Shown piece after piece: positions 4,776 through 16,588 of a DNA stretch of 64,000 nt. The stretch's first letter is position 1. Every line of letters starts with the position of its first letter. The position numbers were made by a program, and so were the translations under genes. The stretch covers positions 6,506,841-6,570,840 of the forward strand of contig NZ_CP042912.1 in the NCBI RefSeq assembly GCF_008087665.1, given 5' to 3'. The notes under the pieces were generated by a model. It was not told where the DNA came from and made no database searches. It saw nothing but the letters and a program-made list of their open reading frames with translations. Source of the stretch: Mariniblastus fucicola. Its GTDB lineage: Bacteria > Planctomycetota > Planctomycetia > Pirellulales > Pirellulaceae.

Positions 4776-7103
4776 GTTTCAATCCACGCGTCCGTGAGGA
4801 CGCGACAGGGGGAAAGAAAGTACGTCAGCGGCGGACGGGTGTTTCAATCCACGCGTCCGTGAGGACGCGACCGGCTCGAATGCATCGAACCGATAATCAG
4901 ACGGCTGTTTCAATCCACGCGTCCGTGAGGACGCGACAGCCTGCGGAGCCACAAAGCTACAATGAATGGCTTGTTTCAATCCACGCGTCCGTGAGGACGC
5001 GACTAGTGGCTATGACCGTGGGTTCTTCCCGGACGAGGTTTCAATCCACGCGTCCGTGAGGACGCGACGCAATGAGTAGGTTTGGTTACGCGATCGAACA
5101 TGTTTCAATCCACGCGTCCGTGAGGACGCGACTTTGTTGATATCACCAGCAACAAAAGAGACGACAGTTTCAATCCACGCGTCCGTGAGGACGCGACTAC
5201 AGATAGAGCGTTGAACCGTCGAGCAAGAATGTTTCAATCCACGCGTCCGTGAGGACGCGACGGGGCCGAGCCTCGAAATATGCCGTCTATCGCCGGTTTC
5301 AATCCACGCGTCCGTGAGGACGCGACGGTAAGCGAGGGCACGAAAACGCTGTACCGGGGGTTTCAATCCACGCGTCCGTGAGGACGCGACCACACTGCCA
5401 TCAGCGCCAGCGATAGGCAACCGAGTGTTTCAATCCACGCGTCCGTGAGGACGCGACGTCAAACGCGCTTCCCCTTGCTTCTGAATTTCGAGTTTCAATC
5501 CACGCGTCCGTGAGGACGCGACACTTGATGGCACGCCGATCACTCCGTCTGGCGTGTTTCAATCCACGCGTCCGTGAGGACGCGACGTCCCTTGTAACTT
5601 GTTACACGTCTCTATCTGTCAAGTTTCAATCCACGCGTCCGTGAGGACGCGACTGATGTACTCAAACTGGATTGCACGCGACGGTGCGTTTCAATCCACG
5701 CGTCCGTGAGGACGCGACCATTTCAACCCTCGTACTTCTTCATTTTTGAATAGAGTTTCAATCCACGCGTCCGTGAGGACGCGACAATCAGTCCAATCAG
5801 TTTGCCAGCGACATAAGGGAAGTTTCAATCCACGCGTCCGTGAGGACGCGACCTGGATTGCCCGCGACGGCGCGAACTTCGTTCCTGTTTCAATCCACGC
5901 GTCCGTGAGGACGCGACTGTATGATCACCAGCAATATTACAAACAGAATCACGGTTTCAATCCACGCGTCCGTGAGGACGCGACCGGCCAATCCCTCAAT
6001 CGCTGCTGCCAATGCCTCAAGTTTCAATCCACGCGTCCGTGAGGACGCGACGATGTTTTTCGGGCTGTGGCAAGTAGCAGTTAAACCGGTTTCAATCCAC
6101 GCGTCCGTGAGGACGCGACCACTCAAAAACGATCCTCTGGATTTGGAGATTGTGTTTCAATCCACGCGTCCGTGAGGACGCGACGGGATTCTTCACGGAT
6201 GACCAGTGTGAGGTCCCGAAGTTTCAATCCACGCGTCCGTGAGGACGCGACTATCGGGTGGGGCGTCACTGGCAAAGAGATTGTGTTTCAATCCACGCGT
6301 CCGTGAGGACGCGACTTTGGCTTGACGTGGATCGGGTCCGAACGACTGAGTTTCAATCCACGCGTCCGTGAGGACGCGACAATCAGTCCAATCAGTTTGC
6401 CAGCGATGTACGGGAAGTTTCAATCCACGCGTCCGTGAGGACGCGACAAAAGGAAATGACAAGCAGACTTGATGCCCTGTTGTTTCAATCCACGCGTCCG
6501 TGAGGACGCGACCTTTGGCCGTTTGCGACCGACGCCAGCAAGAGCAGTTTCAATCCACGCGTCCGTGAGGACGCGACCAGGCGATAGCTGTTTGGTTGGC
6601 ATGTTCCAGTTTGTTTCAATCCACGCGTCCGTGAGGACGCGACCCCAAACGTCAACGTGCTCAAGTGGCTTGCCAATGTTTCAATCCACGCGTCCGTGAG
6701 GACGCGACGACCAACTGAACAAAAATCCACTCACCAAAGTCTGTTTCAATCCACGCGTCCGTGAGGACGCGACTCCCGCCAACTTGCGTTACGTTGACAT
6801 CAAAGACATGTTTCAATCCACGCGTCCGTGAGGACGCGACTTATTGCTGAGTCAAACAGGGACAGGCTCAACGGTTTCAATCCACGCGTCCGTGAGGACG
6901 CGACATTAAGCGCCGTAGCTGCCGACGCACCGGAAGACGTTTCAATCCACGCGTCCGTGAGGACGCGACAGTACGCCAACCGGACGACAACATCCGAAAG
7001 CTCGCGTTTCAATCCACGCGTCCGTGAGGACGCGACGTTCCAAACTGCGTCGTGATTGACAGCGTTAGCGTTGTTTCAATCCACGCGTCCGTGAGGACGC
7101 GAC
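4776..7103 (-). CRISPR. Type I-C CRISPR array, 36 repeats and 35 spacers
   Basis: A 31-bp direct repeat (plus strand begins GTTTCAATCC and ends GGACGCGAC) occurs 36 times from 4776-4806 to 7073-7103, with spacers of 33-37 nt. All copies I read are identical, including the leader-distal one. Read on the minus strand it starts GTCGCGTCC and ends GTGGATTGAAAC, the type I-C class: a 7-bp stem CGCGTCC/GGACGCG, a TCAC loop, then the 11-nt handle TGGATTGAAAC left by Cas5d. Transcription is leftward, in the cas gene direction, with the leader beside cas2; the newest spacers are on the right. Two spacer pairs come from homologous targets: 5786-5821 with 6381-6416, and 5654-5687 with 5853-5886. Confidence 0.99.
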
Positions 7104-7296: not shown

Positions 7297-7587
7297 TCAA
7301 ATGATCAGCGGACCAGAGATATCGACGCCAGGTTTGGCGCCAGCATGCTCGACTCGCCGATGCCAGTTCGCACCGAGATAGTAGAAACGCATGCTGTCCT
7401 CTTCAGGCTTGTAAGCCTCCAACAGCTTGGCCTTGCATTCGGCCCACTGAGCCGGATCGACCAGCAACTCAAAGACAGAATTCTGCACGCGTTGCCCGTA
7501 GTTCAAACAAATCTTCGCGATCTGCCGCAATCGTTTCCTGCCTTCTTTGTCGATTGTGCTCACGTCGTAAGTTACCAACACGTACAT
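7297..7587 (-). CDS. cas2: CRISPR-associated endoribonuclease-fold protein Cas2 (type I-C)
   Basis: 96-residue ferredoxin-fold subunit of the Cas1-Cas2 spacer integrase. It starts [11 protein letters not shown], with the conserved Asp after the first strand, then [14 protein letters not shown] and FYYLGANW, as in subtype I-C Cas2. Last gene of the leftward cas operon, 3 bp after cas1, with the leader and array directly downstream. Confidence 0.97.
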
Positions 7588-7590
7588 CTT

Positions 7591-8622
7591 TTATCTCCAA
7601 ACAAAAGGCGGATAGTCGTCGATGTCACCCCGCAGATATCGGGCCAGTAATCGAGCCTGCAAATGAACCAACAAACCAACGGTGGTCTTCTCGTTCAAAA
7701 ATGGATGAGTGATCACATCCTGTTTTCGCTTTTGATAGGCGGCCAGCACTTCTTTGCGTGGTTTTTCCTTCAGTAACACAGCGCCGCTTTCGGTCACGTC
7801 AAAATCTCTGGCTTGAATCTGTTTCCGATTTAGCAAAGACAACACGAGGCGATCAGCCAGAAAGGCCCGGAATTCTTCGATCAAGTCAAGCGATAGTCCC
7901 GGACGGCCCGGGCGATCGCGATGAAGAAACCCAACGGCTGCGTCGAGGCCCGTTGCTTCGCACGCGCTGCGGGCATCGTGGGTGAGCATCGAGTAGAGAA
8001 AAGAAAGCAGTGCATTGATCCGGTCGAGCGGCGGGCGCCGTGACCGGAACGTAAACTCCATCCCTTTAACACGATTTGACATCATTTGATTGAACACCGA
8101 GAAGTACGTGTTCGCGCTTTCGCCTTCGGTCCCTCGCAACGAATCGAGCGTTGTGGCGTTTCGAGCCGCACGAATGTTTCGCATCATCAGCTTCGCAGTC
8201 GACTGAAGCGCAGATTTCGATTCCGCATCTCGCGAATCACGAGCGGCTCGCAAAAGTACGCTGCGGCTGTTGGCGATTTTCGCTGACACAAAATGTCGGG
8301 CAATATGTAGTGTTGAATCTGGATCGTCCGCCCGACGATACTGTTCGCGGCGCAGCAAAACATTACCGGGCGAGTACCCATTGACGGCTGCGATGAATCC
8401 TCCATACGGAGTAAGGAATGAAATTGAGACGCCCGCCCTGGCACAGGCTCCCATCAATGCCGGACTGCACATGATGTTGCCCAGGCAAACGATTCCGTCA
8501 AGATTGTGCAGCGGCAATCGTAGACGATTCTGTTTCTCGATTGATACCACGACCGCCTGCCCGTCCTTCTTCAGATAGGCTCCTTCAGTCGTCACGAACA
8601 GCGTGTTGAGATGCTTCTTCAT
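7591..8622 (-). CDS. cas1: CRISPR-associated endonuclease Cas1 (type I-C)
   Basis: Metal-dependent integrase that joins prespacers to the leader-end repeat. N-terminal beta domain (HLNTLFVTTEGAYLKKDG) and C-terminal helical domain. Catalytic acidic and His residues are in the expected contexts: GTEGESANTYF, GFLHRDRPGRPGLSLDL and the following EEFRAFLADR. 343 residues is typical for I-C. The start overlaps the cas4 stop by 4 bp, so it is co-translated with cas4. Confidence 0.98.
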   Translation of the reverse strand: MKKHLNTLFVTTEGAYLKKDGQAVVVSIEKQNRLRLPLHNLDGIVCLGNIMCSPALMGACARAGVSISFLTPYGGFIAAVNGYSPGNVLLRREQYRRADDPDSTLHIARHFVSAKIANSRSVLLRAARDSRDAESKSALQSTAKLMMRNIRAARNATTLDSLRGTEGESANTYFSVFNQMMSNRVKGMEFTFRSRRPPLDRINALLSFLYSMLTHDARSACEATGLDAAVGFLHRDRPGRPGLSLDLIEEFRAFLADRLVLSLLNRKQIQARDFDVTESGAVLLKEKPRKEVLAAYQKRKQDVITHPFLNEKTTVGLLVHLQARLLARYLRGDIDDYPPFVWR

Positions 8623-9314
8623 CGGGGCTCCAGAAGGTCAAGGCCGATATCGAAAGGATCTGTTTCCGGAACATCGTCCACGTCATCGTCGCAGTGAAAC
8701 TGACGATCGTTCCATGCGGCAACACCGTTGCGAAATCGTTGGCTGTCCGGCAAGCACAGTTCGACCAGGGAACACTTTTCGCACTTCGGCATGCGCCGCG
8801 CGGTCGGCGTTTCCCGGTCTTCGATCATCTGCCGCAGCCGTTCGATTTTTCGCATGGTCAAATCACGAATCGACGCATCAAACTCAACTTTGGTCCGTCT
8901 CTTTCGGGTGCCGTAGAATAGGAATCCTTCGTCGATGTCGGTCTCTAGCATTTCTTCGAGGCACAATGTTTGAGCGCAAAGCTGGATACGATCCGAAGCA
9001 TCTTTTTTCGGCTTACCGCGTTTGTATTCGATGGGCCTGACGACTCCGCCGCGATGAAACTCTACGACGTCAGCCTGGCCGATCAAACCAAGCCGATTCG
9101 ACTTGAGCCACAATCCTCGTGCGATTCGAATATCCCTGGCTGTTTCGGAAGGTCCATCGTGGGCTTTATCGTGAAGGTGCCGACCTTCGACCGTTAACAC
9201 ATTTTCAGCCCACAGTTGCTCGACATGAATCAGTGCGCATTGCCGTTCGCAGAAGATCAGATGTTGCAGAGCTGAAATCGGTAGCAGTTGATTGTCGGTG
9301 AACATGGATTGCAT
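8619..9314 (-). CDS. cas4: CRISPR-associated exonuclease Cas4 (type I-C)
   Basis: PD-(D/E)XK nuclease with a Fe-S cluster that trims prespacers and helps select PAM-bearing ends. Cluster cysteines: FCERQC near residue 22 and CEKCSLVELC near 178-187. Nuclease motif: GQADVVEF then PIEYKRGKPK (Glu-x-Lys). It carries an unusually acidic C-terminal tail (CDDDVDDVPETDPFD). A second ATG three codons in (9305) is an equally good start. It precedes cas1 with a 4-bp overlap. Confidence 0.96.
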   Translation of the reverse strand: MQSMFTDNQLLPISALQHLIFCERQCALIHVEQLWAENVLTVEGRHLHDKAHDGPSETARDIRIARGLWLKSNRLGLIGQADVVEFHRGGVVRPIEYKRGKPKKDASDRIQLCAQTLCLEEMLETDIDEGFLFYGTRKRRTKVEFDASIRDLTMRKIERLRQMIEDRETPTARRMPKCEKCSLVELCLPDSQRFRNGVAAWNDRQFHCDDDVDDVPETDPFDIGLDLLEPR

Positions 9315-9327
9315 CCGGTGGCAATGG

Positions 9328-9825
9328 TTAGCTGAACTTGATGTTTCCAGGATTCACGTCGGCAATGTAGATGCCGAAAGCTTCAAACGTTGAAAGGATT
9401 TTTTTGACAGCTGGCCAGTTTTCTTCGAAGGCCATGGACTTCATTTCTTCCCAATCGCGCCAGACTTCGGGAGTATAGTCAGGAGGCCGATCAAGGTAGG
9501 CGCCGCCGAAGTCGAGGCAAAACGGAGGACTGACGATTGTCATTTCGATTGCCAGCAGTTCGTCGTCGTAGCCGATCAGGTCGGGGATGCTGTGGCCGCG
9601 AACATCGTTAATTTCCAGATCTTTTAGACGCAGAAAGACTGCTAATTCACGTTCGTAGGCGATTTTTCGATTGTGAAATTTAACGGCGTGGGGACTCAAT
9701 CGGGATGGATTGTTGACGAGGTAAACGGTACCCTGAGTCCCGGTTCCCAGATGTGAAATCAGTTCATGATTCCGCGATTTGAGGAACTGGTTTACGGCCA
9801 ATTGGAATTCATCAGGGATCGTCAT
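9328..9825 (-). CDS. Mini protein-kinase-like protein inside the cas operon
   Basis: 165 residues with an N-lobe protein-kinase fold: glycine loop HLGTGTQGTVYLV (about 25-37), Lys in AVKFHNR, a Glu-rich helix after it, a hinge-like DDELLAIEMT, and a catalytic-loop-like stretch YIADVNPGNIKF at the very end. The protein stops there, so the DFG motif and C-lobe are missing; either a minimal kinase family or a kinase relic. The ATG at 9825 is preferred; a GTG at 9843 would add six residues. Same strand as the cas genes, between cas4 (13 bp) and cas7, not part of any known I-C core. Its start shares a CATG palindrome with the divergent ORF at 9824. Function unknown. Confidence 0.75.
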   Translation of the reverse strand: MTIPDEFQLAVNQFLKSRNHELISHLGTGTQGTVYLVNNPSRLSPHAVKFHNRKIAYERELAVFLRLKDLEINDVRGHSIPDLIGYDDELLAIEMTIVSPPFCLDFGGAYLDRPPDYTPEVWRDWEEMKSMAFEENWPAVKKILSTFEAFGIYIADVNPGNIKFS

Positions 9826-10063
9826 GATCAAGAACTCAGGCACATTTTCGGCAGATGTAAAACTTCTGTTGCATATTGGTTCAGAGCAGTTTGAGATTGG
9901 TTCGCTTGGTCCTGACTATGGCATTTTGCGTGACGAGTTACCGATCGAATCCGGTGAAGGTGTATTGGAAACCATCGTTGATAACCAATCGACCCGCTGG
10001 AACATCCGCTTCACCAGCCCCATTACTGGTGAAGCAAAGCGGTTTACGTTTGAAGCGGTTTAG
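9824..10063 (+). CDS. Hypothetical 79-residue protein divergent from the mini-kinase
   Basis: Small ORF on the strand opposite to the cas genes. The translation looks like a real folded beta-rich protein: a mixed hydrophobic pattern such as VKLLLHIGSEQFEIG and RWNIRFTSP, without low complexity. The ATG at 9824 has GGGA at about -8 and overlaps the opposing ATG of the kinase-like gene. It ends 30 bp before the cas7 stop, so together the two genes fill the cas4-cas7 gap. I do not recognise a family. A coupled regulatory or toxin-antitoxin-like pair is possible but is guesswork. Confidence 0.6.
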   Translation: MIKNSGTFSADVKLLLHIGSEQFEIGSLGPDYGILRDELPIESGEGVLETIVDNQSTRWNIRFTSPITGEAKRFTFEAV

Positions 10064-10093: not shown

Positions 10094-10948
10094 TCAAAAC
10101 TTTCGCTGGATACTGATTCCTTCTGGCAAGTTGTCCTCATCAACATTCAGTTTGTAGTCGCCGAATGTCCTTGGCGGCTGATCGGAAGCAACCAACTCAG
10201 TGGTGACACGCTGTTGTAGTTTGTGGGCTGCAGCATTGCCCAAGGCGTCCTTGTGTTCGAACACTACCAACGCTTGGGGTGACATTTGCCCGCGGCTCGC
10301 TGAACGATCCAGTTCGAACATTTGCTCCAGCGATTTCCAAAACAAATCAAGGTCGTCTTTGGAAAATCCAGTTTGCTTGGCGAAGAACGGATTCACGAAT
10401 CCATGGCATCGATAGAGTCCGTAAGGAACCGTGAACTTGCGACCCATCGTTCGATTGTCGCCGTCCTGCTTCTCTGCTTCCTTCTCAGTTGCGACGGCAC
10501 AACGTGTAATGGCGTGTTCAAGTGAAACAATCGGATCAACACTTCGTGAAAATGCCATCTGAATTGGGCCGCGAACTTGGCCGCAGTTGACTTTTGTGCT
10601 CATCACGGCTCCAAATGTGCGAACGTCGTAGAAGTTCTGGCACATCCACTGGCGACATTGTTCGACCTGAGGTTGTTTCGCCTTCTTAGGGTCAAGTTTC
10701 AAGGCTTGATACGCTCGATCGTGGACGCTGTTGAGTACGGCGCGCTCTTTAACGTAAATTTCGAAAGGAGGCTTCTCTTCTTTGACCGTGCCGACAAAGT
10801 TTCGCACTTTGCGTTTGAGGCAGACGTCTGTTACCAGCCCGTGGCCAGTTTCCGGATCGACTCGCGGCAAATTGCCCGCGTCAGGATCGCCGTTAGGGTT
10901 GCCGTCAGTGACATCAAAAAACAGTACAAAATCGTAGCGGTGATCCAT
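10094..10948 (-). CDS. cas7: Cascade backbone protein Cas7 (Csd2, type I-C)
   Basis: RRM-fold subunit that polymerises along the crRNA spacer in the I-C Cascade. The hallmark [15 protein letters not shown] lies at residues 11-25, followed by [29 protein letters not shown] and [16 protein letters not shown]. 284 residues is the family length. It sits 66 bp downstream of cas8c; the kinase/79-residue insert separates it from cas4. Confidence 0.98.
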
Positions 10949-11014: not shown

Positions 11015-12772
11015 TTAGTCTTCCTTCTTCGATTTCTTGGTGAAGAAATCCTGTCGCTGGTGGTAGTACCCGATCGCGAATAGCCCTTGGTCGGCAAGCC
11101 CCAGATGAGGCGGAAACGCATCAAGTCGCCCCATGATTTCCTGAAGGCGTTTTTCAGCGACGACTTTCTTGCCAGCCTCAAGTTTCCCGACGTGATGCTG
11201 ACTCATTCGAATCAGACGTGGGAAAACGGACGAGGGCGTTGATGACGCAGCGCCGAAATATCGATCCTTGATCGTTGCGTTGAGTCCGGGAAGAGCATCT
11301 TCTTGAGCTCGCTCCAATGAGGCAAACAAACGCCCCAAGTGATACGATGGCTCGGCGCGTTCAATATCAAGCATGACTGATATCTCCTTTTGATGATTGT
11401 GGTTTAAGATTGCTTTAATGATTGCCGCTTTCGGATGCCGGATCTCACGCTCGGCACGAATGCGTCGGATGATGGCTGACAAAAGTGATTCGGGGTATCG
11501 ACCGCCTGTCAAAACACTGCGCAAAAGTGCACCTCCGAGCAACGGTTGAATCTCCTTGGACTCGCGGGCTGTTTGAGCAAGGATCAGCCAAAGCGGTAGA
11601 AACGTTTTGTCTTTAGGACCCTTGGCAATTTCGAGTCGGGCTTGATGTTGAGCAACCCGTTCGATTAGTTCGCCTGCGGTTCCGCTGATCCAAAACCGGA
11701 TCGAAAGCCGGGCGGCATTGGGAGATAATCCCAAAACATAGAACCCGGTTCCAGCGCCCGGCGGTTCAGCCTCGCCTTGAGCGATCCGACTGAGCATAGC
11801 GCCAATTTCGTTGGCCCGAGTTTCATCTTCGAATTGATCGTTATCGAGCCCGAAAGCAAAAATGTCTTCGATTTCTTCGGCTTCGGTTGACTGATCGGCC
11901 CAGAACACACAGGTTGTGTCTCCGATCCGAAGTCGTCTGCCTGAATCACGCTCAAGCATGCGATTGAGCACCGTGGCGTATTTGAATGCCGAGCTTTCAC
12001 CGATGGGAGCATTGAAACTTTGCTCTTTGCCGTAGCTGGTAAAGGCGTCATCGTTAAATGAGACGATCGAAGCACCGGCCGATTGGGCTCCAGCGATTCC
12101 CTTGACTACCGGATGTAGGCGAGCAAGCGTGGTGTTGGAGCCGGAGACCAAACAGAAACCGTCGGTGTCGGAGTCTTCGGCTACCGTTTGTGATTGGGCC
12201 CAAAATTCTTGAACGGCTGGAATGTCGTGTAAAAAGTTGGTTGACTTTCGAATTCGGAAAACCCCAAAGCCTGTTCCGATGTCGGCAAGAAACTGTAATT
12301 GTTCTTCGGTAAGCGAATCTGGTTTCCAGTTTTTCCAGAACGCTACAAGTGATTGGTACTCTGGCATCAAAAGTTCTTCAGCAAAACCGATATGGAATTC
12401 CTGAGCTGCGCGAAAGCAGAGACCAACACGATCAATTTTCTTTTGCCGCTTCTCTTTGTCCTTTTCGGATTCGCTGTCTGGTTCGACCTTCAACTCAGGC
12501 GGAACCCAGCCAAGCAAGTACTCGGCTTTGTCCCAAAGAAACATTGGCGCGATTGCGTTTGCTCGTTTGCCACCATAAGGCAGTTCGATGATCCGGTTAG
12601 CTGGTTTGCGACCGGATGTGTCGCGAATATCCTGTAGCGCGTGTAAGCTCCCGTCGGATTCGATCACTACTTCGAAACCGATTTTCTGTGGAGCAAATCC
12701 GACAGCCGCAATAGATTGCTCAGGATCGGCAGCGATTCGATCGTAGTACTCGCAAAGTTTTTGCAAGATCAT
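11015..12772 (-). CDS. cas8c: Cascade large subunit Cas8c (Csd1)
   Basis: Subtype-defining large subunit of I-C, responsible for PAM recognition and Cas3 recruitment. 585 residues. Starts MILQKLCEYYDRI, then a beta-rich region with RIIELPYGGKRANAIAPMFL, LVSGSNTTLARLHP, and a helical C-terminus; this run of motifs is typical of Csd1. In I-C an internal translation start within this gene usually also gives the Cas11c small subunit, so no separate cas11 gene is expected. The ATG overlaps the cas5d stop by 4 bp. Confidence 0.96.
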   Translation of the reverse strand: MILQKLCEYYDRIAADPEQSIAAVGFAPQKIGFEVVIESDGSLHALQDIRDTSGRKPANRIIELPYGGKRANAIAPMFLWDKAEYLLGWVPPELKVEPDSESEKDKEKRQKKIDRVGLCFRAAQEFHIGFAEELLMPEYQSLVAFWKNWKPDSLTEEQLQFLADIGTGFGVFRIRKSTNFLHDIPAVQEFWAQSQTVAEDSDTDGFCLVSGSNTTLARLHPVVKGIAGAQSAGASIVSFNDDAFTSYGKEQSFNAPIGESSAFKYATVLNRMLERDSGRRLRIGDTTCVFWADQSTEAEEIEDIFAFGLDNDQFEDETRANEIGAMLSRIAQGEAEPPGAGTGFYVLGLSPNAARLSIRFWISGTAGELIERVAQHQARLEIAKGPKDKTFLPLWLILAQTARESKEIQPLLGGALLRSVLTGGRYPESLLSAIIRRIRAEREIRHPKAAIIKAILNHNHQKEISVMLDIERAEPSYHLGRLFASLERAQEDALPGLNATIKDRYFGAASSTPSSVFPRLIRMSQHHVGKLEAGKKVVAEKRLQEIMGRLDAFPPHLGLADQGLFAIGYYHQRQDFFTKKSKKED

Positions 12773-13440
12773 GCCTTCACCTCGGAACTATAGAGCTGTG
12801 GGACTTCGATCACGCCGCCTTTCATGGTTGCTCGAAAGAACCGAGGCGTCATTCCATTCTGAAAGTCGATGTCATGCAGCATGAATCCTAAGTCACGTTC
12901 ACCGGCGAGTGATATGTCAGCGGCAGGTGGATCGCCTTCATACCACTCAAAGTCCGCAACGAATTCACGGCAGCCCAGATAGGGCCGTTGAAAGCATTGG
13001 CCTTTTGAAGCCCGTCGTTTGAACATTTCGTAGTGCTTCTGTGGCGGGTCGTTCCCTTTGATAACTTCGTAATGAGCTTCGATGATGTATTCGACATTTT
13101 GCAGAATCGTCGCGGCTCTCTGCTGCCGATCGTCCTCGATCACCTGAGCCAACACGTTCGTTTTTTCACCGCCCAGATAGGATTTAAGCGTTCGATCTGA
13201 AGGACCGACGCCTCCCAGTTCATTCCTTCGAATGTTGGTGAATCGAATGGGCTGGAGGACGTGAATCTTCCGAACCACCCAACGAATCTCGGGTTTCCAG
13301 TAGATTGCCTCGAGAACTCCGCGGGCTGCCGAAGGCGTCATTACGTCGTAGCTGACACGTTCGACTTTCATTTCTGGTCGCGTGAAACAGGCAAATTCCC
13401 CCCAAATGCGAAGGGAGACGCGGTTTTTCTCGATGTCCAT
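12769..13440 (-). CDS. cas5: Cascade subunit and crRNA endonuclease Cas5d (type I-C)
   Basis: 223-residue RAMP protein that in I-C replaces Cas6: it cuts the pre-crRNA at the base of the repeat stem and then caps the 5' handle. Typical start LRIWGEFACFTRPEMKVERVSYDVMTPSAARGVLEAIYW, then LGCREFVADFEW and a glycine-containing C-terminus. The absence of cas6 in the locus agrees. It is the first gene after the 402-bp gap that follows cas3, and a leftward promoter candidate lies at 13492-13519. Confidence 0.97.
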   Translation of the reverse strand: MDIEKNRVSLRIWGEFACFTRPEMKVERVSYDVMTPSAARGVLEAIYWKPEIRWVVRKIHVLQPIRFTNIRRNELGGVGPSDRTLKSYLGGEKTNVLAQVIEDDRQQRAATILQNVEYIIEAHYEVIKGNDPPQKHYEMFKRRASKGQCFQRPYLGCREFVADFEWYEGDPPAADISLAGERDLGFMLHDIDFQNGMTPRFFRATMKGGVIEVPQLYSSEVKA

Positions 13441-13460
13441 GAGAGATCCTAATGTTGACG

Positions 13461-13488
13461 TTGACTATTTTGTACAGCTGGATAGAAT
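13461..13488 (+). promoter_or_regulatory. Rightward sigma70-type promoter for the 66-residue ORF and crRNA-like RNA
   Basis: TTGACT (13461-13466), 16 bp, TAGAAT (13483-13488): five of six consensus bases in each box. A start site near 13495 puts the TTC-flanked protospacer at about +4 onward. Strand and spacing fit the + strand transcript ending at the 13816-13843 terminator. Confidence 0.65.
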
Positions 13489-13491
13489 TTC

Positions 13492-13519
13492 ATTATTCAC
13501 TTTACATTTTAAGTACCAA
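13492..13519 (-). promoter_or_regulatory. Candidate leftward promoter for cas5-cas8c-cas7-cas4-cas1-cas2
   Basis: Read on the minus strand: TTGGTA (13514-13519), 16 bp, AATAAT (13492-13497), upstream of the cas5d start at 13440. Moderate consensus match. Its spacer region contains the PAM and seed of the putative crRNA-like regulator's target. Confidence 0.45.
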
Positions 13520-13533
13520 AAAGGATTGAGGCA
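13496..13533 (+). promoter_or_regulatory. Putative Cascade target site: TTC PAM plus seed match to the crRNA-like RNA
   Basis: TTC at 13496-13498 is followed by ACTTTACATTTT (13499-13510). The spacer-like segment at 13778 begins ACTTTTCATTTT: identical at positions 1-5 and 7-12, mismatched only at 6, the base flipped out in type I seed pairing. Similarity continues with 1-nt gaps (AAGTA, CC). TTC is the known I-C PAM. Confidence 0.7.
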
Positions 13534-13734
13534 ATGTGGAAACCAGATGAAAATGAAAAGCAAAGACTTTTCGATCTCTATGAGGAGTGTCCGCTAACGG
13601 TGGACCGCCTACCACACACAAAAGAATTTGACTTACTGCATGAGAAGCTTGGAAAAGAGATCTCAAAAAATGAGCTGTTTCGTGTCCTCGCGAACCTGCG
13701 GAAAAGAAAGGAGTTGCCGAAGAAACCTCGCTGA
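13534..13734 (+). CDS. 66-residue protein in the cas3-cas5d gap, opposite strand
   Basis: Basic-ended helical small protein (MWKPDENEKQRLFDLYEECP at the start; LPHTKEFDLLHEKLG in the middle; NLRKRKELPKKPR at the end) with no signal peptide. AAGGA lies 8 bases before the ATG and a good promoter is at 13461-13488. It is AT-richer than the flanking cas genes. The N-terminal acidic and C-terminal basic layout suits a small nucleic-acid-binding or toxin-like protein, but I do not recognise a defined family. It is transcribed against the cas operon and is followed, 12 bp later, by a diverged CRISPR repeat on the same strand. Its promoter region carries the TTC-flanked site matched by that RNA, so Cascade may repress it, as CreA represses creT. 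Confidence 0.65.
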   Translation: MWKPDENEKQRLFDLYEECPLTVDRLPHTKEFDLLHEKLGKEISKNELFRVLANLRKRKELPKKPR

Positions 13735-13746
13735 CTTCGGAGCAGT

Positions 13747-13777
13747 GTCGCCAAACAGGACTGGCGTGGATTGAAAC
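13747..13777 (+). repeat. Solitary diverged CRISPR repeat (psi-repeat)
   Basis: Exactly 31 nt, like the array repeat, but on the opposite strand. The first 5 (GTCGC) and last 14 (GCGTGGATTGAAAC) bases are identical to it; the middle 12 differ. The stem is kept at the same place (positions 3-7 with 16-20, CGCCA/TGGCG) with two compensatory base-pair swaps (G-C to C-G, T-A to A-T). The 11-nt handle is intact. Confidence 0.9.
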
Positions 13778-13815
13778 ACTTTTCATTTTTAAGTATCCGT
13801 GTATCCCATCAATGT

Positions 13816-13843
13816 GCGGCCGACACCCTGTCGGCCGCTTTTT
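13816..13843 (+). terminator. Intrinsic terminator of the rightward transcript
   Basis: Perfect 10-bp stem GCGGCCGACA / TGTCGGCCGC with a CCC loop, followed by TTTTT. The U-tract polarity fits the + strand only; it ends at the stop codon of the opposing cas3 gene. Confidence 0.92.
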
Positions 13844-16092
13844 CAAATAATGCAGTCTTCAACTGGCAACACCCCGTCTGCGCGACTCAACTGAAGCCCC
13901 AGCTTGTCGTCGTACAAATGTGATTGACTCAACACCCAATGATCGTTGACCAACTCAATCGCGCCTGCCGCTTTCAACAAGCCAAGTTCGTACTGTCGAA
14001 CCTGAACGGAGTAGCGTTGCAGCCGCCGCAAAGTGTTGCGATGAAGAAACGGATGCGATTTTGCCAACTCTTCAATCAGTCGATCGCCTTTCTCATCCCA
14101 GCCGACAAGGAGCGTCTCAGTGTCGTCTTTGATAAATCGGTAACGTTGTGCGATCTCTCGAAAGTTAAATTGCATGTCACTGGGGCGGTTGCCGATCGCC
14201 GCGAGTACTCTGTGGTAGTCCCACGCGTCTGATTTTTTCCAGTAATGCAGACGAAAATAGCTTTCGATGGCTTGTGGCGATAAGAGGTCGTCTGCAAATT
14301 CGTCGATCAACTCCTTGCCGCTGTCGGCACTCTGGCGCAGAAAACCCGGCGGCGGCAGGTTTTCACCCTCGAACAGAACAACTCTGCCACAATCAAGCTT
14401 GCCTTCACGATTACAACGTCCGGCCGCTTGAGCCAGTGAATCGAGCCCACAACTGGCGCGATAAACAACCGGAAAATCAACATCAACACCTGCCTCAATC
14501 AGCTGCGTACTAACCACGCGGCAAGATTCTCCGTTCTTTAATCGTTCGCGAATGTTGTCGAGCTGTCGCGTTCGATGGGAAGCACACATGCGGGTGCTGA
14601 GATGGAAACTACTGTCAGACTCGCTGTCGTTTAGCCGCTCAAACAACTCGGCAGCTTCGGCACGCGTGTTCACGATGCAGAGAACCTGATCTTCCCGCCG
14701 AATATTTTCGGCCAGTTCCTCGTTGCCGATTTTCCCAGCAACTTCAACGCGCGTTCGGACCAAGGACTGGTGAAGCTGCTGCGGATCGTCAATGATCGGC
14801 GTGATGTCTTCCAAGCCGATTTTAAACTCGGCGCTTTTTTTTAGCGCTGGTTGGGTCGCGCTGCATAGGACAACAGTGCACCCGTACGAATCAACCAATT
14901 CCTGCAAAGCCATCATTGTTGATTGCAGCAGCTCGATCGGAAGCGTTTGCGCCTCGTCAAGAATGATCACGCTGTTGGCGATGCGATGGAGCTTTCTGCA
15001 ACGTGACGTTTTGCTTGCAAACAGGGATTCAAACAGTTGAACGTTGGTAGTCACAACCAACGACGCGTCCCAGTTTTCTGACTGGAGACGACTCGTTGTT
15101 GTATCTTTTTCTGGGTCCAAATTGCTGTGATGCTCAAGCATCAATTCCGAATCAAGCGAAGCAAACAGTTTTCGATAGACGTCTGCATTTTGCTCAATGA
15201 TGCTGGTAAACGGCACGGCTACGATGACTCGATCAAGATTGTTTTCAATCGCGTGGGTCAATGCGAATCGCAACGAAGCTAAAGTCTTTCCGCCTCCGGT
15301 GGGAACGCATAAGGAAAACAGGCCGTTGGGCAAGGTAGCTTTTTCTTTGCACTGTTGACCTATCAGGGTGCGTATTCGATTTACTTCCGTTGCGTCAGCA
15401 TCCACCGTTAACCTAGCCAACTTTGCCTCCAACAACTCCCGCATTTGAATGAATGATTCGCTCTGACCAGGACGTTGCGCCGACTTTCCTGGTGACATAA
15501 ACGACTCGGTTGCCAAAAAATCCGCGTCGACCAATGCTGAGAACACGATGCGAATCCAAAAGGCAACTCGGAACGCGGCGTGGGATCGATTTTTTGGCTT
15601 TTTGAATTGCGGCATGCCGGGAAATTCGAAATCAACCAAACTGGACGGAGCGTTAGATTGCCAGTCAGCTATTTCTTTGTGCAAGCGTTGCTTCAAGCCA
15701 GATTGGCTTTTCCCGTCGTCCCAGTCCGGCAAGCCTGCGTGGTGTCCAGCGAAGGAATAAGAAAGCAAACGTCCGCGTGCGTCGCCAAATTTCCGAACAG
15801 CCAATTTAGCCGCAGCAGTGGAGTGATCGACGCTACCTCTTACTTCTGCGCGATGACCATCACTGTCTCCTTCGTATCCGGCGTGATTTGCAGCTGCAAT
15901 GTAGTTTTGAAAACGTTCAGAATACTTCCCCAAATCATGCCATTTCCCCAGCAATTCGCCCCAAGCTTCAAGCGACGGATCAATTCGCTTCAAAAATCTC
16001 GCGCAGTATTCTGCCACCAGATCTTCATGCTGCTGCATGGTTTCCCACTTCTCCTGCGGTTGGTTTTCAAGACTGTGGGCGTAAAACGTCAT
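13843..16092 (-). CDS. cas3: CRISPR-associated nuclease-helicase Cas3
   Basis: Effector recruited by Cascade to unwind and shred target DNA. N-terminal HD nuclease: YAHSLEN start, WHDLGKYSERF (His-Asp at 52-53), GHHAGLPDW. SF2 helicase: Walker A VPTGGGKT (about 263-270), DEAQ box ILDEAQTLP (about 379), LCSATQ, and motif VI QAAGRCNREG. I chose the ATG at 16092 (749 residues) because Cas3 proteins usually begin a few residues before the YAHS motif; an in-frame ATG at 16152 would add 20 residues. First cas gene of the leftward locus, separated from cas5d by the 402-bp gap. Confidence 0.97.
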   Translation of the reverse strand: MTFYAHSLENQPQEKWETMQQHEDLVAEYCARFLKRIDPSLEAWGELLGKWHDLGKYSERFQNYIAAANHAGYEGDSDGHRAEVRGSVDHSTAAAKLAVRKFGDARGRLLSYSFAGHHAGLPDWDDGKSQSGLKQRLHKEIADWQSNAPSSLVDFEFPGMPQFKKPKNRSHAAFRVAFWIRIVFSALVDADFLATESFMSPGKSAQRPGQSESFIQMRELLEAKLARLTVDADATEVNRIRTLIGQQCKEKATLPNGLFSLCVPTGGGKTLASLRFALTHAIENNLDRVIVAVPFTSIIEQNADVYRKLFASLDSELMLEHHSNLDPEKDTTTSRLQSENWDASLVVTTNVQLFESLFASKTSRCRKLHRIANSVIILDEAQTLPIELLQSTMMALQELVDSYGCTVVLCSATQPALKKSAEFKIGLEDITPIIDDPQQLHQSLVRTRVEVAGKIGNEELAENIRREDQVLCIVNTRAEAAELFERLNDSESDSSFHLSTRMCASHRTRQLDNIRERLKNGESCRVVSTQLIEAGVDVDFPVVYRASCGLDSLAQAAGRCNREGKLDCGRVVLFEGENLPPPGFLRQSADSGKELIDEFADDLLSPQAIESYFRLHYWKKSDAWDYHRVLAAIGNRPSDMQFNFREIAQRYRFIKDDTETLLVGWDEKGDRLIEELAKSHPFLHRNTLRRLQRYSVQVRQYELGLLKAAGAIELVNDHWVLSQSHLYDDKLGLQLSRADGVLPVEDCII

Positions 16093-16588
16093 GTGGCCAA
16101 TAAAACGGAATTCGAATTTCGATATGCCTATTGAAGCCGACCAATTTGACACGTCTGGTCACGCTTCGCAATTTCAAGCAACGGGTTCGGTAACTTTCTC
16201 ACCGATGCGCAAACCCGGTTGCTAACCGGAGCGTCCGGAAAGTCTCACCCTAAAGCTGTAACAATATATTGCACTTATCCATTTTATGTCCGATCGGACG
16301 TTTGGGCGAGTTGCATGGGTGTGCTTCTCAGACCTTGAAGATTGGGACTCTGGTTTAGCTAAACAACGCAAGAAAGGTACTACGGAACTGAAACCAAATT
16401 CAGTGAAGGCGCGGCGAGCGGACATGTTCGATCAGACCGGCAGAACTGCTCTATTTCAAGTGATATCGTCCGGCAAATGCAATCTCTGCGGAATTGTCGA
16501 CCGCAACTGTGGACGATCGAAAACGTTTTGCATTAAGTATCTATAGTCGAACGATGAAAACGATTTCTTAGTGGATACGCCCAACATC
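16093..16588. promoter_or_regulatory. Divergent intergenic region upstream of cas3
   Basis: About 500 bp with no gene I can support. It holds three perfect palindromes that could be operators: CCGGTT-GCT-AACCGG (16215-16229), CAATATATTG (16262-16271) and GTCCGATCGGAC (16288-16299). The cas3 promoter should lie here on the minus strand. An 86-codon open frame at 16286-16546 does not look like a protein. Confidence 0.5.

Follow-up and report, generated by a model that had tools for sequence, protein, structure and literature searches.

A candidate CreR-type RNA unit between cas3 and cas5 of a Mariniblastus fucicola type I-C CRISPR-Cas locus, with similar units in other Planctomycetota

Introduction

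CreR RNAs regulate cas genes and derive from mini-CRISPRs (Liu et al., 2023, Cell Host Microbe; taken here from passages of PMC13131331, PMC12737573 and PMC12948488). They are stated for types I-B, I-E and V-A in a passage of PMC13131331, while excerpts of PMC12737573 describe them as generally uncoupled from a toxin gene and give a model in which competing crRNAs or anti-CRISPRs relieve the repression. CreA RNAs mismatch their targets at positions 6, 11 and 18 in Acinetobacter type I-F and have an 11-bp canonical seed in archaeal systems (part of PMC10097628). Searches of the open literature found no paper that treats CreR in type I-C systems or in planctomycetes, and the original CreR paper might mention type I-C.

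The locus described here, from the planctomycete Mariniblastus fucicola, compares most closely with CreR. An ectopic repeat lies outside the array and carries a crRNA 5' handle, its guide is complementary, over a short length and incompletely, to the promoter region of the adjoining cas genes next to a PAM (the promoters being consensus matches), this complementarity is restricted to the PAM-near part, and the linked cas operon is predicted to be controlled. The locus differs from the CreR systems in being type I-C, in that similar units are often linked to a small DNA-binding-like protein (to a sigma-like protein in two loci), and in that the unit lies behind such a reading frame, ORF66, probably within the ORF66 transcript. 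With CreTA, the type VIII toxin-antitoxin system (passages of PMC9458426 and PMC10097628), it shares the order of target, gene and RNA, a degenerate repeat and a mismatch at position 6, but a toxin role of ORF66 is only putative and many units target the front of cas5 with no ORF66 found. CrePA, a protein toxin with a CreA (PMC12737573, in part), likewise has a protein-coding gene behind a Cascade target, whereas ORF66 resembles a DNA-binding domain. In tracrRNA-guided repression of cas genes by Cas9 (excerpts of PMC11417352) an effector also represses its own genes through a natural guide, but that system is class 2 type II-A and tracrRNA-based.

Results

The type I-C locus and its cas3-cas5 interval

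The window, the whole 64,000-nucleotide stretch of DNA analysed, is the end of the one-contig M. fucicola genome (6,570,840 bases). Its minus strand carries a complete type I-C locus: cas3 (13843-16152), cas5d/cas5c (12769-13440; TIGR01876), cas8c (Csd1; 11015-12772), cas7 (Csd2; 10094-10948), cas4 (8619-9314), cas1 (7591-8622) and cas2 (7297-7587; TIGR01573). The CRISPR array of 36 repeats of 31 nt lies at 4776-7103, on the same strand as the cas genes. The cas7/cas4 interval also contains a minus-strand reading frame of 171 aa (9328-9843) that matches no family above cut-off. Within the array two spacer pairs are alike (5753-5852 and 6348-6447, near-identical at 97% including repeats; 5660-5688 and 5846-5874, similar at 83%), as if related invaders had been sampled twice.

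The interval between cas3 and cas5 is 402 nt long. Read along its plus strand, it contains first a promoter-like site and ORF66, then a diverged repeat with a guide-like segment behind it, and last a terminator. The repeat (13747-13777, plus strand) is 31 nt long like the array repeat read on the minus strand, from which it keeps 19 of 31 bases, comprising the first 5 and the last 14 and including the handle TGGATTGAAAC. Its predicted fold contains a CGCCA/TGGCG stem in which pairs have been swapped on both sides, G6-C17 and T7-A16 of the array repeat being replaced by C6-G17 and A7-T16. A base match of this size is unexceptional by itself (elsewhere in the window 31-mers score 19-21 of 31), and what marks out the lone repeat is its exact handle, its stem and its place rather than its base match; the lone repeat holds the sole non-array copy of the exact 11-nt handle in the window. 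The guide-like segment occupies 13778-13815 and the terminator 13816-13843, a perfect 10-bp stem (13816-13838) followed by T5, in a neighbourhood where one terminator-like site was found and 0.7 expected in shuffles. These features bear out what the preliminary description had claimed of the repeat, its handle, the swapped stem pairs and the terminator; the spacer-like segment is likewise present, with a length of 38 nt up to the terminator stem instead of the 36 nt given there.

The guide has one matching site, placed at two opposed promoter-like sequences

Guide bases 1-12 match 13499-13510 except at base 6, and a TTC PAM (13496-13498, plus strand) stands directly ahead, again as first described. 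The protospacer-like target extends over 13499-13533 on the plus strand; leaving aside the sixth position, its seed (13499-13509) agrees with the guide at 10 of 10. Among 3056 TTC sites on both strands of the window only the target matches at all 10 seed positions (1-5 and 7-11), the next best matching at 8, and the combined TTC and seed pattern occurs once in the 6,570,840-base genome, at the target, while a reversed control pattern occurs 0 times. Past base 12 a shift of one base is needed for the likeness to continue (ungapped, 13 of 32 bases match), and pairing in the window unit is confined to the first 11-12 positions.

The target lies among sequences resembling promoters. A plus-strand site (TTGACT-N16-TAGAAT, 13461-13488, 10 of 12 consensus bases) faces ORF66 and probably also serves the CreR-like unit, and a minus-strand site (TTGCCT-N17-TAAAAT, 13506-13534, 9 of 12 consensus bases, its second hexamer inside the protospacer) could serve cas5 and the genes behind it; a second leftward candidate spans 13519-13492, and both leftward candidates overlap the protospacer. 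Between 13380 and 13900 three promoter-like sites were counted against 0.5 expected, all being consensus matches in a group whose promoter rules are uncertain. With two opposed promoter-like sites at the target, repression of both the cas5 and the ORF66 promoters, as had been proposed, is plausible. The plus-strand site is the sole one found on its strand between these limits, and the sole one facing the RNA unit. The self-limiting loop put forward earlier fits this arrangement, as the RNA would come from the promoter that it blocks and the loop would limit itself.

The direction of the protospacer strand, which points the same way as ORF66, together with the uncertainty of promoter calls made from consensus matches in Planctomycetes, would also suit repression of ORF66 and the RNA itself alone, with cas5 served by a separate promoter outside the protospacer. 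The overlap of both leftward candidates with the protospacer argues against such a restriction, as does the finding that, in 14 of the 19 strictly defined units from the survey below for which no ORF66-family gene was found, no more than 350 nt separate the target from the aligned cas5 start. Repression confined to ORF66 and its RNA is unlikely on this evidence, and control of both promoters is preferred.

Similar units recur in Planctomycetota

Genome sets that overlap one another gave cas5-positive genomes in 44 of 396 (order), 41 of 392 (phylum), 5 of 29 (class of G711) and 64 of 397 (class). From these, 129 Planctomycetota loci were examined including the window, 124 of them with cas3 and cas5; the scan of 136 loci added L142 (a copy of a locus already in the set) and six type I-C plasmid loci from other phyla. 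Isolated handle-like sites were defined by at most 1 mismatch to GGATTGAAAC and no neighbour at array spacing (151 sites), and the guide bases after each handle were compared with about 460 nt upstream, on both strands and with any PAM, against a null of shuffled guides. The isolated repeats of the 136 loci gave 27 perfect seed matches to their own upstream regions against 0.3 expected, and 12 matches at 9/10 against 5.1 expected.

The own-locus scan yielded 39 hits at 38 sites. Seven were dropped, six for unshared PAMs (CAT, AAT, GAA, AAC, GAA and TTT, in L108, L135, L196 at 6199, two in L197, and a second hit in the window) and one, the L142 row, for lying on the same contig as L186. The 32 kept comprise 24 perfect hits and 8 at 9/10, where about 5 hits of the latter grade were expected by chance before the PAM sort. 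L190, which matches at 8/10, was added by hand for carrying ORF66, giving 33 CreR-like units in the 124 Planctomycetota loci with cas3 and cas5, or over a quarter. A relaxed look at 15 orphan repeats contributed three more (L094, L194 and L195), 36 in all, which stand outside the position and pairing statistics of the 33; the guides of L194 and L195 are similar, and the PAM register of L195 is unsure. A unit was found in 0 of the 6 plasmid loci from other phyla. A looser scan of unit-less loci returned mostly array artefacts and isolated weak hits, none of which was accepted, and 8 shuffled guides scored equally.

Target and unit both lie between cas3 and cas5 in 31 of 33, in some together with other reading frames. 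The two exceptions are L092 (around 6861-7098), where the target is in front of cas4 and control would fall on the adaptation genes instead of on Cascade, and L138, where the unit follows cas7, the guide is AT-rich and no cas gene stands directly behind the target. The target is on the strand opposite to the unit in 26 and on the same strand in 7, the window being among the 7. The PAM ahead of the target is TTC in 21 of 33 and GCC, GTC or GTT in 12 (L196, L198-L202, L204, L205, L210 and L212-L214), counts that the PAM-based sorting of hits biases towards shared PAMs. On the cas5 tree the 12 non-TTC units fall into two cas5c branches separate from that of the window; in NCBIfam searches of two of their loci, cas5c, cas8c, cas7 and cas1c of L201 pass the type I-C cut-offs and cas8c of L199 falls just below. 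Sigma70-like sites are present in the target regions of 11 of the 33 units, where base shuffles gave 3.8. The repeat folds at -4 kcal/mol or lower in 32 of 33, with hairpin z-scores (-3.4 to +0.9) that are unremarkable in several units, and a terminator-like stem with a T-run was detected in 20 and not detected in 13.

Seeds and targets change together and pairing follows a 6-nt rhythm

The seeds of the 33 units differ, with a pairwise median of 3 and at most 7 of 10 seed positions equal. A PAM-flanked site agreeing at 9-10 of 10 positions is present in the own locus for 32 of 33 units; this is partly by construction, since the own-locus match was the selection criterion, and the argument rests on the controls: no non-cognate pair of guide and locus among 1056 reaches 9/10 with a PAM, the best reaching 8. 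In family f22 (with Tautonia; L177, L179, L180, L184, L185, L186 and L190) the kind of repeat and its place are common to all seven units, whereas seeds and targets have changed together and still match. The expectation that seed and target would covary in related type I-C loci is in this way supported across loci, by the excess of perfect matches and by the non-cognate control; for the window's own pair conservation was not seen, as no unit was detected in its three nearest cas5 relatives (L044, L045 and L121).

In type I effectors every sixth base is flipped out of the guide-target duplex, and a 6-nt rhythm is expected. Matches among the 33 units number 31, 33, 33, 33 and 33 at positions 1-5, 5 at position 6, 31, 32, 31, 33 and 30 at positions 7-11, 9 at position 12, 25, 27, 26, 21 and 14 at positions 13-17 and 11 at position 18, and pairing is near background beyond about position 17-18. 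Positions 6, 12 and those from 13 onwards were unused in detecting units by the own-locus scan, and they show dips at 6 (5/33) and 12 (9/33) and a rise at 13-16 (21-27 of 33; null mean 8.6-10). As read from these sequences, the dips and the rise are the 6-nt rhythm of Cascade. Two further ideas about position 6 were given up. That the target base there is always A, as might be expected of a transcription start or -10 base, was true of the first 12 units; in the full set A stands there in 22 of 33, still an enrichment, although the guide match at that position is at background. Selection for a mismatch there is not indicated by 28 mismatched units of 33 where 75% are expected (p 0.13).

The same results bear on two further readings. 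As a repeat that is diverged and single-copy it might be a decayed array remnant or a self-targeting spacer with a match by chance, a reading contradicted by the genome-wide uniqueness of the site, by the shuffled and non-cognate controls and by the recurrence of such units, and extremely improbable. A solitary repeat might equally be a repeat-mimic RNA anti-CRISPR of the Racr kind (described in part of PMC10651486), left by a mobile element and tying up Cas proteins. Its place among host cas genes, the site that its guide matches, the occurrence elsewhere of other guides with matches of their own and the failure of one scan of viral contigs to find an ORF66 relative make this origin scarcely credible as well.

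On the cas5 tree of the 124 loci the presence of a unit (36 loci, the relaxed three included) requires 24 changes against 31.4 when shuffled, and at least 15 of the 24 are forced by well-supported branches. The distribution suggests inheritance of units for a while with frequent gain or loss, or else units that escaped the scan.

ORF66 and the gene slot behind the target

ORF66 (13534-13734, plus strand), a 66-aa reading frame directly behind the target, is predicted to fold into three helices. By profile search, 8 further cas loci of the set encode a homologue, in every case next to a CreR-like unit, so that 9 of 9 family loci carry a unit against 27 of 115 others (Fisher, p 7e-6, counting L190 and the three relaxed units; strictly, 8 of 9 meet the 9/10 seed rule, L190 matching at 8/10). 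Remote relatives in L198, L200, L202, L210 and L212 were sought in unit loci only and are no test of this association.

The window ORF66 had no match in Pfam (threshold E 1), in NCBIfam (0.001) or among the PADLOC models (0.01), and PADLOC likewise gave none for five family members. Pfam searches with 27 members of the alignment gave matches to single members only, the best being an HTH (E 0.006), which was not used. Foldseek comparison of the ORF66 model with the PDB gave nothing at E 0.001 (best 2.2); the structural matches to Csa3, Lrp/AsnC-like and homeodomain proteins are weak. In L002 (1-1926, minus strand) two tandem ORF66-like domains are followed by an AAA_14/DUF4143 ATPase, which also matches the PADLOC candidate family PDC-S01. 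A protein with sigma-70 regions is encoded in L194 (2797-3384, r2 and r4) and in L195 (2737-3363, r4). ORF66 could be a regulator or a toxin.

The second possibility would make the locus an addiction module like CreTA or CrePA, with an ORF66 toxin held down by Cascade and the RNA and loss of Cascade harming the cell. Such logic is described in passages of PMC9458426; target, ORF66 and RNA unit follow one another on one strand in the window and in L034, like creT-creA, and the target lies at most 80 nt in front of ORF66 in 9 of 9 family loci. Against it, 7 of the 9 have ORF66 ahead of cas5 and on the same strand as the cas genes, which would then be controlled too, and searches of the 36 unit loci (by profile in all, and by eye for remote relatives in 16) returned no member of the ORF66 family in 22. 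The predicted three-helix protein is moreover weakly similar to DNA-binding domains, tandem copies of its domain occur in large AAA ATPase proteins, and the sigma-70-like gene of L194 and L195 occupies the slot of ORF66 in the window, between target and CreR-like unit and ahead of cas5. An addiction module is, on balance, quite improbable; the predicted structure and the neighbourhood rather suggest that ORF66 is a small regulator that binds DNA and belongs to this control circuit.

Discussion

The lone repeat and its guide most probably encode a CreR-type crRNA-like RNA that would direct Cascade to 13496-13533 and repress the cas5 and ORF66 promoters (probability about 0.85, judged on sequence evidence). 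As a type I-C representative of the CreR kind the window unit is well supported by its sequence; new here are the type, the frequency of such units and the small protein family, that of ORF66, right behind the target.

The arrangement suggests the following course. Transcription would probably start at the ORF66 promoter, cross ORF66 and the repeat and stop at the terminator, whereupon Cas5d would cut the repeat and leave the handle; Cas5 is the crRNA nuclease in type I-C (stated in a passage of PMC10013973). Cascade loaded with the guide would bind 13496-13533, covering the -10-like hexamer of cas5 and sitting just downstream of that of ORF66, and could block both promoters, the partial, short pairing leading to repression without DNA cleavage. 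Stemming from a promoter that it blocks, the RNA would limit its own supply. When many array crRNAs compete, or an anti-CRISPR disables Cascade, repression would lift as in the published CreR model, allowing fresh synthesis of Cas proteins and of ORF66.

A more far-reaching possibility, which we regard as tentative and rather doubtful, is that planctomycete type I-C Cascade, besides damping its own genes, uses CreR-type RNAs to hold down a dedicated transcription factor, either a member of the ORF66 family or, in two loci, a sigma factor. Losing Cascade, or having it poisoned by an anti-CRISPR, would then start a second, wider gene programme along with new Cas proteins.

Type I-C, in which crRNAs are made by Cas5 and not Cas6, joins the systems with likely RNA-guided self-repression, and in Planctomycetota such self-repression is suggested to be common, with frequent rewiring, and not the peculiarity of a single genome. 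The roughly 30 pairs of seed and target show the positions that Cascade seems to check in nature, namely 1-5, 7-11 and 13-16 and not 6 or 12. Finally, the ORF66 family, together with the sigma-like protein of two loci, would be under the control of Cascade, by which a response of the cell to the disablement of Cascade becomes testable.
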